A stretch of DNA of 64,000 nt. Source: Leptolyngbya sp. NIES-2104 (GTDB taxonomy: Bacteria > Cyanobacteriota > Cyanobacteriia > Leptolyngbyales > Leptolyngbyaceae). Numbering within the stretch: position 1 is the stretch's first letter; each line of letters begins with the position of its first letter. Positions 4,720 to 50,946 of this stretch are shown piece by piece. The notes beneath the pieces were generated by a model. It saw only the letters and a program-made list of their open reading frames with translations. It searched no databases and was not told where the DNA came from. The stretch is taken from assembly GCF_001485215.1 (NCBI RefSeq), contig NZ_BBWW01000001.1, positions 1,550,001 through 1,614,000 on the forward strand, in the 5' to 3' direction. The position numbers and the translations under genes are program-made.

Positions 4720-5457
4720 TCAATCCCATTCCGCTGCCTCTTCTCGTTCGATTTGTGCGATCGTATTTTTCACACTGTTCCAATCGATGCCCATTTCATT
4801 GCGAATTAATTGCCCTTGTTGTAACTGTAAAATTCGTCCTGCAAACCGTTCCGCCCATTCAAACTGATGAGTAACCACGAGAACCGTAGAATCAACTTGA
4901 GCCAAAACTTTCAGTAAAATCTCGCTGCGAGCAGCATCCAAATTTGCGATCGGTTCATCCAACAACAACACCGCAGGTTGACAGATTAAAGCTCTAGCGA
5001 TCGCGATCCATTGTCGTTCTCCTGTAGAAAGCTCTAGTTCAGATCGATCGAGCCATTCTCGCGGAATGTTCATTCGTTCAACAACTTGATCAATTCGCTG
5101 ATCAATGTCTTTTAAGTTTCTCAACTTCAGCGGATAGATCAAAGCTTCTCTGATCGTTGTTCCGAACAGTTTCGGCTCTTGAGCAACAAAGAGAATTTGC
5201 TGTCTTAATTGCAGGACTGGAATTTCTGAATAAGGCTTACCTTCAAACTCAATTGATCCCGCACTCGGTTCGATCAATCGATTCAATAGTTTGAGCAATG
5301 TTGTTTTTCCAGAACCCGAAGCACCGACGATCGCAATTCGATTGCCTTTCTCCACCACAAACGAAACATTCCGCAGCACTTCATAGCCTGAAATCGGTGT
5401 GCCTTTCTGCGTCACTCGACCCGCCGCGAAACTGACTTGCTCAACTCGAATCCGCAT
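4720..5457 (-). CDS. ABC transporter ATP-binding protein
   Basis: This is a single ABC ATPase domain of 245 residues. Walker A is GASGSGKTT, the Q-loop region is LFVAQEPKLFGTT, the signature motif is LSTGERQW, Walker B is VLLLDEPIANLD, and the switch histidine follows in VVTHQ. It would power a membrane permease, but no typical permease gene adjoins it. The upstream gene encodes a three-helix membrane protein that could be a partner. The ATG at 5457 overlaps the stop of that gene (TGATG), so an upstream in-frame extension to 5496 is rejected. It resembles the small ATPases of the FetA/YbbL type, but substrate cannot be read from sequence. Confidence 0.88.
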   Translation of the reverse strand: MRIRVEQVSFAAGRVTQKGTPISGYEVLRNVSFVVEKGNRIAIVGASGSGKTTLLKLLNRLIEPSAGSIEFEGKPYSEIPVLQLRQQILFVAQEPKLFGTTIREALIYPLKLRNLKDIDQRIDQVVERMNIPREWLDRSELELSTGERQWIAIARALICQPAVLLLDEPIANLDAARSEILLKVLAQVDSTVLVVTHQFEWAERFAGRILQLQQGQLIRNEMGIDWNSVKNTIAQIEREEAAEWD

Positions 5458-16564: not shown

Positions 16565-16774
16565 GTATTCCAACCGGATATCGACTTTCCTATCCTAACG
16601 CTTTCAGGTGATCGCGCTCTCTAAATCAGACAGTGAAATTCGATCGCCGATCATTTTACAAATTTCTATACTTATCCTGCGATTCTGATGATATCCTGGT
16701 TAGGCTTCTGATTTCGACCCGAAATTAGAACACAAATCCTGGGGGCGTGGCGGAATGGTAGACGCTACGGACTT

Positions 16775-17445
16775 AACGATTTGAGCACCGAAGCCGAAAC
16801 GCTTCGTGTGAATGGAGTCAAATTCGGTGAAAGCTTTCATCTGCCAACGCCGAGCTAAGCTCTGGAGATCGCCTTCTCTTTTTACCTCGATAGGTTGGAG
16901 TGAAGGCATGACAGTTGGGGCACAACAGTCTTAGATTGCTGAGAGAGTTGTCTTGATTGTTGCCGTTGATGTGGTCTAGCTCAAGTGGAATAGGGTTTCC
17001 TAGCCATTCAGTTAGATTGCACGATTCGCAGCAGTGAGTCTTAATTCCTTCCCGCAGTAGTTTGAGTTTAAGTTTATAGGATTGAATCGGCTGCTTGTTC
17101 ATCAAGTGTTCCGAAAGCGATCTTCTCGCTCCAAGCTTCTTGTTTTTGCTCCATCCCTGGTGAGTGAAATGAGAAATGTCAAGACCAAGAGTGGTGATAC
17201 GTTTCTTCAAAGATTCGTAATTTCCACCAGCGGGACGCAGACCTAGCTTCAAAAGTACTTGCCTGTACGAGAAAGAAGTTTCAACTGCTTGAATAAATTC
17301 CGCTTCTGTGTGCTTTGACATTGTTGTTTTCCAGAGAAAGTGTAGAGACTAGACGGCTCCTACCTGACTGGCATACTGCTAAAAGGTAAAGGCATAGTCC
17401 AGACTACAAACACAGTAATGTGGTAGTGAAAACTACAGTAGTAAG
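16775..17445 (+). other. group I intron in tRNA-Leu(UAA), enlarged by an antisense endonuclease gene
   Basis: The 671-nt intron starts after U34 and ends in G at 17445. Near its 5' end, TTGAGC provides a guide that can pair with the 5' exon ...GGACTT, leaving a U-G pair at the splice site. A hairpin CGAAGC/GCTTCG follows (P2). The segments AAATTCGGTGAAAGC and CTGCCAACGCCGAGCTAAG resemble the P3-P6 core of trnL introns. GTAGAGACTAGACGG and AAGGCATAGTCCAGACTAC near 17341-17406 resemble P7 and the distal core. Typical cyanobacterial copies are roughly 250-300 nt; the excess here is an HNH gene on the opposite strand. Helix names are by eye. Confidence 0.85.
16818..17321 (-). CDS. HNH endonuclease, antisense inside the tRNA-Leu intron
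   Basis: The 167-residue protein has an N-terminal region (residues 19-54, including LGLRPAGGNYESLKKRI and LDISHF) like the DNA-binding segment of many phage and bacterial HNH enzymes. Its C-terminal HNH nuclease has CxxC at 98-101, the catalytic LDHINGN at 115-121, NLRLLCPNCH at 129-138 and a basic stretch RGKKRRR. All expected zinc and metal residues are present, so it is probably intact. It runs opposite to the tRNA; its last 15-20 codons lie on the complement of the intron core. It may be a homing endonuclease that spreads the intron (inference). The ATG is at 17321; the ribosome-binding site is weak. Confidence 0.9.
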   Translation of the reverse strand: MSKHTEAEFIQAVETSFSYRQVLLKLGLRPAGGNYESLKKRITTLGLDISHFTHQGWSKNKKLGARRSLSEHLMNKQPIQSYKLKLKLLREGIKTHCCESCNLTEWLGNPIPLELDHINGNNQDNSLSNLRLLCPNCHAFTPTYRGKKRRRSPELSSALADESFHRI

Positions 17446-17500
17446 AAAATCCGTTGACCGCAAGGTTGTAAGGGTTCAAGTCCCTTCGCCCCCATTGAAT

Positions 17501-17537
17501 AAAGAGCGATCGCATTTCAAACCCCGATCGCTCTTTT
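17501..17537 (+). terminator. bidirectional terminator between tRNA-Leu and serpin gene
   Basis: A perfect 12-bp stem AAAGAGCGATCG/CGATCGCTCTTT is followed by T residues on the plus strand. It begins seven bases after the tRNA and touches the stop codon of the convergent serpin gene, so it may serve both. Confidence 0.8.
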
Positions 17538-50484: not shown

Positions 50485-50811
50485 TGAACACCCTCCAAGA
50501 ACCTGACCCCACCCGAACCCGATCGCCCTTTGTTTCTATTACCACTGCCGATCCGTCTCGGTCAGGGAAAATTAAGAATCGATCATCCGTCTATTAGCAT
50601 TACAAATTTTTGCCTCGATCGACGATGTAAAACCGACTCAAGACTAGGATTTCAGACGCGATTACCTCCATCAATAGACGCATTCTTTACTCAAAGGTTA
50701 CGCAAAGTTCAAGAAAACTTTGTCATAGCTTTAAGTATTCCCACCCAGAGCGTCCGGAGTGCAACGGTAATTTTCAGGAAAAGGGAGTGGTAGATGCACC
50801 CTGATTTATCG
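50485..50811. other. gap upstream of sodB, no gene supported
   Basis: This stretch holds the upstream region of the CHAT gene. A plus-strand reading frame at 50530-50793 starts with TTG and has no ribosome-binding site or recognisable motif, so it is not called. The terminator at 50812 shows that something may be transcribed rightward through here. Confidence 0.5.
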
Positions 50812-50844
50812 CCTCCGTTCATGCCTAGTGAATGGAGGTTTTTT
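50812..50844 (+). terminator. orphan terminator or attenuator upstream of sodB
   Basis: CCTCCGTTCA pairs with TGAATGGAGG (one G-T pair) around a seven-base loop and is followed by six T residues. The nearest upstream plus-strand gene is absent, so it ends either a small RNA or the sodB leader. It lies about 100 bases before sodB. Confidence 0.72.
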
Positions 50845-50946
50845 ATTTCTACCAAATCCTCATCTCGCTTTTGAGATAGAATTTTCACGGTTAAGTTATG
50901 TTTCTGCCAATCGCTCAGCAGACACCCAATAGAGAGGATTGAACAC

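Follow-up and report, generated by a model that had tools for sequence, protein, structure and literature searches.

The classic group I intron of cyanobacterial and plastid trnL(UAA) genes, known as the Anabaena type, is reportedly the subject of Xu 1990, Kuhsel 1990 and Paquin 1997, and an intron of the Synechocystis tRNA-fMet gene with the endonuclease I-Ssp6803I is said to have been described by Bonocora and Shub in 2001. Open reading frames are absent from all 242 plastid trnL intron entries of one survey (PMC1995217), and a search of the open-access literature found no earlier account of a trnL intron with an endonuclease gene. In the collaborative homing described for phages, a free-standing endonuclease targets the site of an ORF-less intron (PMC3984707, PMC2988022, PMC10448857); according to a 2014 review, all phage introns then seen lay in protein genes (PMC3984707). 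Antisense homing endonuclease genes of the His-Cys kind are present in the nuclear rDNA introns Dsq.L2066 and Dir.S956-2 (PMC9548176), which bears out the remark, in an earlier note on the DNA analysed here, that such genes are known from some other group I introns. Introns in gammaproteobacterial tRNA-Leu-TAA genes have previously been noted in Beggiatoa and Thiomargarita (PMC4853749).

The split tRNA-Leu(UAA) gene

Within the window, a 64,000-nt stretch of the Leptolyngbya sp. NIES-2104 genome, is a tRNA-Leu(UAA) gene (16741–17494, forward strand, as are its exons, intron and core helices) interrupted, just behind U34, by a group I intron of 671 nt. The 5′ exon (16741–16774) ends at U34, the intron (16775–17445) ends in G17445, and the 3′ exon (17446–17494) starts with A35 and does not encode CCA. 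In-silico deletion of 16775–17445 yields a tRNA-Leu with the anticodon UAA that is called by ARAGORN, and the split after U34, the intron length and the terminal G all agree with the earlier note.

On the unspliced gene, ARAGORN and Rfam call neither tRNA nor intron, owing to a 465-nt insert (see below), and this silence was set aside as a refutation of the intron because the insert accounts for it. A covariance search over 16741–17494, the check by which the earlier note proposed that its own claim might fall, thus leaves the window copy unmatched, whereas HNH-less copies of the same intron pass Rfam. Against the gathering threshold of 50 bits for Intron_gpI (RF00028), the HNH-less copy from the same genus (L027) scores 51.5 bits, that from a gammaproteobacterium (L288) 56.7 bits, and those from four phage contigs (L122, L096, L127 and L174) 58–63 bits. 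Elsewhere in the window (50788–50846, + strand), Rfam RF02399, with a gathering score of 39, detects NsiR1, nitrogen stress-induced RNA 1, at 56.4 bits.

Core pairs were counted, and scored without energies, on an alignment of 48 introns of this kind from which the HNH inserts had been excised. The P1 internal guide UUUGAG (16780–16785) sets G16783 in a wobble with U34 (16774) at the splice site, a U·G pair found in 48/48 introns. P3, formed by GGAG (16814–16817) and CUCC (17357–17360), covaries strongly, being paired in 47–48 of the 48 with all of GC, CG, TA and AT represented; P4, comprising UCGGU (16824–16828) and its 3′ strand at 16849–16853, is paired in 46–48 introns and covaries, as does P5. 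The guanosine-binding helix P7, composed of GACUA (17347–17351) and UAGUC (17395–17399), is paired throughout (48/48), its final pair alternating between UA and AU. Closing the insert is P6, a perfect 6-bp helix of CTCTGG (16860–16865) and CCAGAG (17331–17336). Judged by this covariation, the element is a group I intron with a conserved core and a P3/P7 pseudoknot.

The antisense HNH gene

Inserted into the P6 loop are 465 nt (16866–17330) delimited by alignment with the HNH-less sister L027, to which the window intron core is identical at 187 of 206 positions (91%), the insert being the remaining difference. Here begins, on the reverse strand, a gene for an HNH endonuclease of 167 aa (16818–17321; ATG at 17321, TGA at 16818–16820), whose last ~16 codons overlap the intron core in antisense. 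Cyanobacterial and gammaproteobacterial copies do not have the same stop codon, and the C-terminal tail read through the core is therefore probably of little importance. The frame is intact and retains the catalytic and zinc motifs (CxxC, LDHINGN and NLRLLCPNCH), in accord with the coordinates, motifs and lengths given in the earlier note.

The protein matches PHROG 10822 (HNH endonuclease) with an E value of 3.9e-50, and its matches to Pfam HNH_3/HNH are weak and below the cut-off. The AlphaFold model (mean pLDDT 87) comprises an N-terminal three-helix domain followed by an HNH fold, for which searches of solved structures and with Foldseek gave no significant relative. Identity with IscB or ZorE was considered and rejected, as the protein scores 17 bits against NCBIfam cut-offs of 175 and 600, with the HNH motif alone matching. 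Between the window HNH and L008, dN is 0.149 and dS is saturated, so that no dS figure is computable; dN/dS is ~0.11 for L009/L010 and ~0.07 for L078/L085. On these figures, the HNH gene is under purifying selection.

The antisense placement is unlike that of the sense-strand ORFs of classic ORF-bearing bacterial and phage group I introns; intronic copies of the same HNH family in sense orientation are found in L137, L113, L265 and L269. A scan for a promoter or terminator of the antisense gene gave nothing above shuffles and no convincing promoter. Between the tRNA and an opposite-strand serpin-like gene is an inverted repeat, AAAGAGCGATCG...CGATCGCTCTTT (17501–17536), which is probably a bidirectional terminator; if it is, the HNH gene would need its own promoter in the intron or the 3′ exon.

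Intron lineage and allelic states in cyanobacteria

Two kinds of intron occupy this site within one bacterial family: type A, the usual cyanobacterial and plastid intron, and type B, that of the window. On the intron tree, type A is a separate group with support of 100/100, and the window intron belongs to a different 100/100 clade, which holds the six cyanobacterial type-B introns and is confined to this family. The gammaproteobacterial type-B introns form a 97/95 clade, and nearest to the cyanobacterial clade from outside the phylum is, with weak support, the intron of viral contig L074. By this phylogeny, the window intron is of a lineage separate from the classic cyanobacterial and plastid trnL intron and common to phages and Gammaproteobacteria; it is a distinct lineage at the same site instead of a lengthened version of the usual intron, a correction to the reading in the earlier note.

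An exact-pattern search finds type B in 6 of 390 genomes of the class, and G011 also carries a type-B intron, of slightly different sequence. Within the genus of the window, tRNA-Leu(UAA) exists in three allelic states: intronless in four genomes (G002, G005, G006 and G007), with an HNH-less type-B intron in two (G001, 223 nt; G004, 219 nt), and with both intron and HNH in one, the window genome itself (G000). The exons are identical at 84/84 positions across G000, G001 and G004 and 94% identical to those of type-A relatives, and the flanking ndhL and DUF3007-like genes (named by inspection) adjoin the tRNA in Alkalinema too. Judged from its exons and neighbours, the tRNA gene itself is inherited in place.

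Among the cyanobacteria searched, a close HNH homologue is present only in the window and in one Alkalinema metagenome-assembled genome (MAG). These two HNHs are sisters, but HNH-less introns fall between their introns on the intron tree, so that in cyanobacteria gain of the HNH is no more likely than its loss, and the present HNH-less copies may be losses. On the careful protein tree described below, the pair of the window HNH and L008 is not firmly placed.

Two more group I introns, neither with an ORF, are found in the window genome just under the Rfam cut-off: L002 (G000:C1:4224433-4224644, −; 49.6 bits) and L003 (G000:C1:4054936-4055123, +; 34 bits), their host genes being, by inspection, tRNA-Arg(CCU) and tRNA-fMet.

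The composite in Gammaproteobacteria and phages

An antisense HNH gene occupies the same place in the Alkalinema MAG and in several Gammaproteobacteria MAGs, and its arrangement in the window is therefore not a matter of chance. Five of the gammaproteobacterial MAGs (L009, L010, L286, L287 and L289) have it inside a tRNA-Leu(UAA) intron at a locus adjoining tRNA-Cys and, in most cases, also tRNA-Gly genes. In their relative L288 the intron is HNH-less, and an HNH of 65% identity directly adjoins it on the outside, in antisense orientation. Phage contigs carry the composite of intron and HNH as well, and beside several such loci are phage genes, encoding a DNA polymerase (L163) or members of the phage ATP-dependent protease family (L145 and L159). 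The layout of collaborative homing is thus present in L288 and in phage contigs, and absent from the window, where the HNH is inside the intron. Plasmids gave one weak HNH match and zero intron matches.

In the cultured Agrobacterium phage Atu_ph07, a 278-nt type-B intron splits tRNA-Leu(UAA), with both tRNA and intron unannotated (L545, NC_042013, about 112.93–113.25 kb, minus strand), which contradicts the 2014 review statement that phage introns lay in protein genes (PMC3984707). Elsewhere in its genome, this phage encodes HNHs of the same family as the window HNH. A similar intron, of 205 nt, is present in the tRNA-Leu(UAA) gene of the 735-kb phage LR756501. The tRNA of contig L096, which bears an intron, recurs almost unchanged in cyanophage S-TIM5, where it lacks the intron and has the consensus anticodon arm; intron-plus and intron-minus alleles therefore both exist in cyanophages.

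Two further observations concern phage contigs. Pelagibacter phage HTVC120P has, within its capsid gene (MH598807, 19653–19807), a stretch resembling the type-B intron core, and the ribozyme lineage may therefore occupy a protein gene too. Adjoining the intron-split tRNA-Leu(UAA) and an HNH on viral contig L127, which has 15 tRNAs, is a cyano/permuted tmRNA (4840–5092, +; RF01851, 72.4 bits; RF04321, 52.4 bits).

Association of the HNH family with UAA tRNA genes

Relatives of the HNH were gathered by protein similarity alone, with position ignored, giving 112 proteins non-redundant at 90% identity. Of these, 51 are no more than 300 nt from an intronless UAA tRNA gene and 22 no more than 300 nt from an intron-split one, and a further 13 are inside a UAA-tRNA intron in antisense and 3 in sense orientation; hand inspection adds five cases (three beside split genes, one antisense and one sense), bringing the number at UAA tRNAs to about 94 of 112. 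Automatic intron calls were overlong in L158, L201, L258 and L265, for which the wrong exon had been chosen, and shorter solutions were used where present. At loci with at least two tRNAs, the UAA tRNA is the nearest in 56 of 70, compared with an expectation of 19.8 and a maximum of 30 over 2000 permutations. Eight further relatives adjoin tRNA-Leu(CAA) or tRNA-Leu(UAG). Named phages that fit the pattern are Francesca (UAA), EFDG1, Maleficent, phiPsa347, GodonK, cr111_1 (UAG next to it) and S-CRM01 (CAA); the relatives in T5, phiSA012, Dorin, V45v66 and EGole are not beside tRNA-Leu, and the rule is therefore not universal in distant members.

By length, 18 of the 51 intronless neighbours are class I tRNAs, and it therefore seems to be the anticodon loop, more than the body of the tRNA, that the association tracks. 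Short-bodied (class I) UAA phage tRNAs beside an HNH are found in L058, L066, L086, L092, L095, L201 and L213, among others, and in L201 and L213 the class I UAA tRNA is itself split by a type-B intron.

Directly after a family HNH, ~90-nt tRNAs that combine a UAU anticodon with a long variable arm occur in L011 (3442–3535), L084 (2946–3036) and L143 (2914–3003), from Armatimonadota, a viral contig and cyanophage S-CRM01, respectively. tRNA-Ile is normally without a long arm. On contig 5 of the Armatimonadota genome G491, four HNH relatives (L053–L056) in about 125 kb have each their own neighbouring tRNA (UAU, Cys, Gln and Val), which suggests HNH sub-families with other tRNA targets.

The anticodon arm

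The consensus anticodon arm GACTTAAAATC (GACTT/AAAATC) is present in 37 of 38 intron-bearing tRNA genes, in 38 of 47 control viral tRNA-Leu(UAA) genes without a nearby HNH (chosen by D-loop patterns and not phylogenetically independent), and in only 12 of the 51 intronless UAA tRNA genes beside an HNH, of whose arms TGACACTTAAAATGTCA is an example. This first comparison being biased, it was redone with matched subsets: matching for D-loop type gives 1/9 versus 65/83 (p = 1.2e-4, treating sequences as independent, though they are related), and class II tRNAs in multi-tRNA loci give 6/33 versus 32/44 (p = 2.5e-6, relatedness ignored). If the arm is what the enzyme cuts, the genes that persist should have the intron or a changed arm, and the consensus should be rare beside the HNH, as it is. 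The altered arms are as expected of putative cleavage-resistant alleles, and the 12 intronless tRNAs that keep the consensus would be unprotected if the HNH beside them is active.

Position of the HNH relative to the intron

On a careful, unrooted protein tree of 99 HNHs, the HNH gene switches strand with respect to the tRNA 6 times, against a mean of 27 when shuffled, and by this count relative orientation is conservative. A single antisense clade, as drawn by a quick tree that grouped all antisense members in one half, was rejected in view of these 6 changes. The position inside or outside the intron changes 13 times, of which at least 6 changes are forced by well-supported branches; as the tree is unrooted, gain and loss of the intronic position are indistinguishable on it. 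In the reading preferred here, intron and endonuclease would have joined repeatedly at one shared target.

Discussion

The anatomy, the covarying core, conservation and selection, the distribution over phages and Gammaproteobacteria, the free-standing HNH relatives and the arm signature are features of the sequences themselves, and are consistent with a composite mobile intron whose HNH would target the anticodon arm, with intron and endonuclease joined repeatedly at that one target, a reading to which we assign a probability of roughly 0.78. The mobile element would comprise the tRNA-type group I intron and, in antisense orientation within its P6 loop, the gene of the HNH homing endonuclease. 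Produced from an antisense transcript, the HNH would cut or nick the anticodon-arm DNA, at about GACTT/AAAATC, of intronless tRNA-Leu(UAA) genes, and repair from an intron-bearing copy would install intron and HNH together. As the intron would self-splice from the pre-tRNA, leaving the tRNA functional, the host would be unharmed, and as it interrupts the target, its own genome would be protected from the HNH. Owing to the target that endonuclease and intron would share, an HNH that had homed beside the tRNA could enter the intron, or be lost again. The likely vehicle is phages with tRNA-Leu(UAA) genes.

The earlier note had suggested that an active homing enzyme could explain recent spread of the intron. 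Spread by homing is supported indirectly, by the three allelic states in the genus, the composite shared across phyla and phages, purifying selection and the changes in the target arm; recent spread of the window copy itself is unproven, because the HNH is rare in the cyanobacterial genomes sampled and the HNH-less copies may be losses.

Turnover, as opposed to assembly, is a possible though doubtful account of the same loci. Here, the intronic HNH would be ancestral, and the layouts with an HNH beside the intron would arise through purging of the intronic copy followed by arrival of a fresh, free-standing HNH, as has been proposed for collaborative-homing loci (PMC10448857). With sister HNHs and HNH-less introns between them, the cyanobacterial pattern fits losses as well as gains, but the largest class of all (51) has the HNH beside a wholly intronless UAA tRNA and occurs on both orientation halves of the tree, and location changes many times on a tree whose lack of a root makes the direction unreadable.

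That the HNH benefits phage or host, by tRNA-gene maintenance or by exclusion of rival phages in the manner of T4 SegB, with the link to the intron secondary, is improbable as the whole explanation. SegB homes at the T4 tRNA region (PMC2988022), phage tRNAs can be anti-defence (PMC13096335), and many of the HNH relatives adjoin tRNAs without any intron; such a benefit is compatible with homing, not opposed to it, and alone leaves unexplained both the repeated entry into introns of one tRNA and the restriction of arm variation to intronless alleles with an HNH beside them.

It is quite improbable that the HNH is a free-loading gene, a free-standing phage HNH that fell by chance into a tolerant P6 loop of an intron which it would not mobilise and which would pass on vertically or by whole-locus recombination. 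Although the cyanobacterial introns with and without HNH are one clade of this family only, most of those copies are without HNH, and the exons are unchanged whichever state the intron is in, chance insertion is at odds with an HNH family tied to UAA tRNAs inside and outside introns, at a constant distance, across two phyla of bacteria and phages that are unrelated, and with the altered arms of HNH-adjacent intronless alleles. An assembly or annotation artefact, to which the failure of standard tools to call tRNA and intron might point, is hardly credible for a window within a contig of 5.7 Mb, from a genome whose completeness is 99.96%, with the same structure in independent genomes and contigs.

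How a ribozyme intron gains its endonuclease is an old question. Here, one endonuclease family and one intron type are found at one tRNA target in all combinations, the HNH being beside an intronless gene, beside a split gene, inside in antisense and inside in sense orientation, with a near before-and-after pair in related Gammaproteobacteria and three allelic states in one cyanobacterial genus; this makes the question of origin testable with short DNA substrates. The chances are about even for a broader proposal, in which one phage-borne HNH family would target the UAA-tRNA anticodon arm whatever the tRNA body, genomes would survive through an interrupting intron or changed arm bases, and intron and endonuclease would repeatedly have been joined and parted there, in both orientations, while crossing from phages into Cyanobacteria and Gammaproteobacteria. 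If true, it would provide a natural series for the assembly of mobile group I introns, and point to group I introns being common in the tRNA genes of phages.

Comparison with known systems

The window intron shares with the Anabaena-type trnL intron the same gene, the position after U34, a group I core and a size of ~200–300 nt without the insert, but the latter is of the type A lineage and normally ORF-less, whereas the former is of type B with an antisense HNH. As in the I-Ssp6803I system, a group I intron of a cyanobacterial tRNA is paired with an endonuclease whose target is, or in the window would be, the anticodon region; there, however, the enzyme is of the PD-(D/E)XK kind and the tRNA a different one, and here an HNH gene is antisense in tRNA-Leu. 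Dsq.L2066 and Dir.S956-2 likewise have an antisense homing endonuclease gene in a peripheral loop, with sense and antisense versions at one site, but in eukaryotic rDNA, with a His-Cys box and insertion in P9, as opposed to a bacterial and phage tRNA, an HNH and P6. T4 SegB resembles the present family in being free-standing and in its link, as a homing endonuclease, to the tRNA genes of a phage, and differs in its nuclease family (GIY-YIG), its tRNA-intergenic target and the lack of an intron. Collaborative homing is approached by the relatives L288, L122 and L096, in which a free-standing HNH is beside an ORF-less intron with one target; the known cases are in protein genes, whereas here the gene is tRNA-Leu(UAA), and a single endonuclease family is found beside, at split genes and inside, in both orientations, in phages and bacteria.
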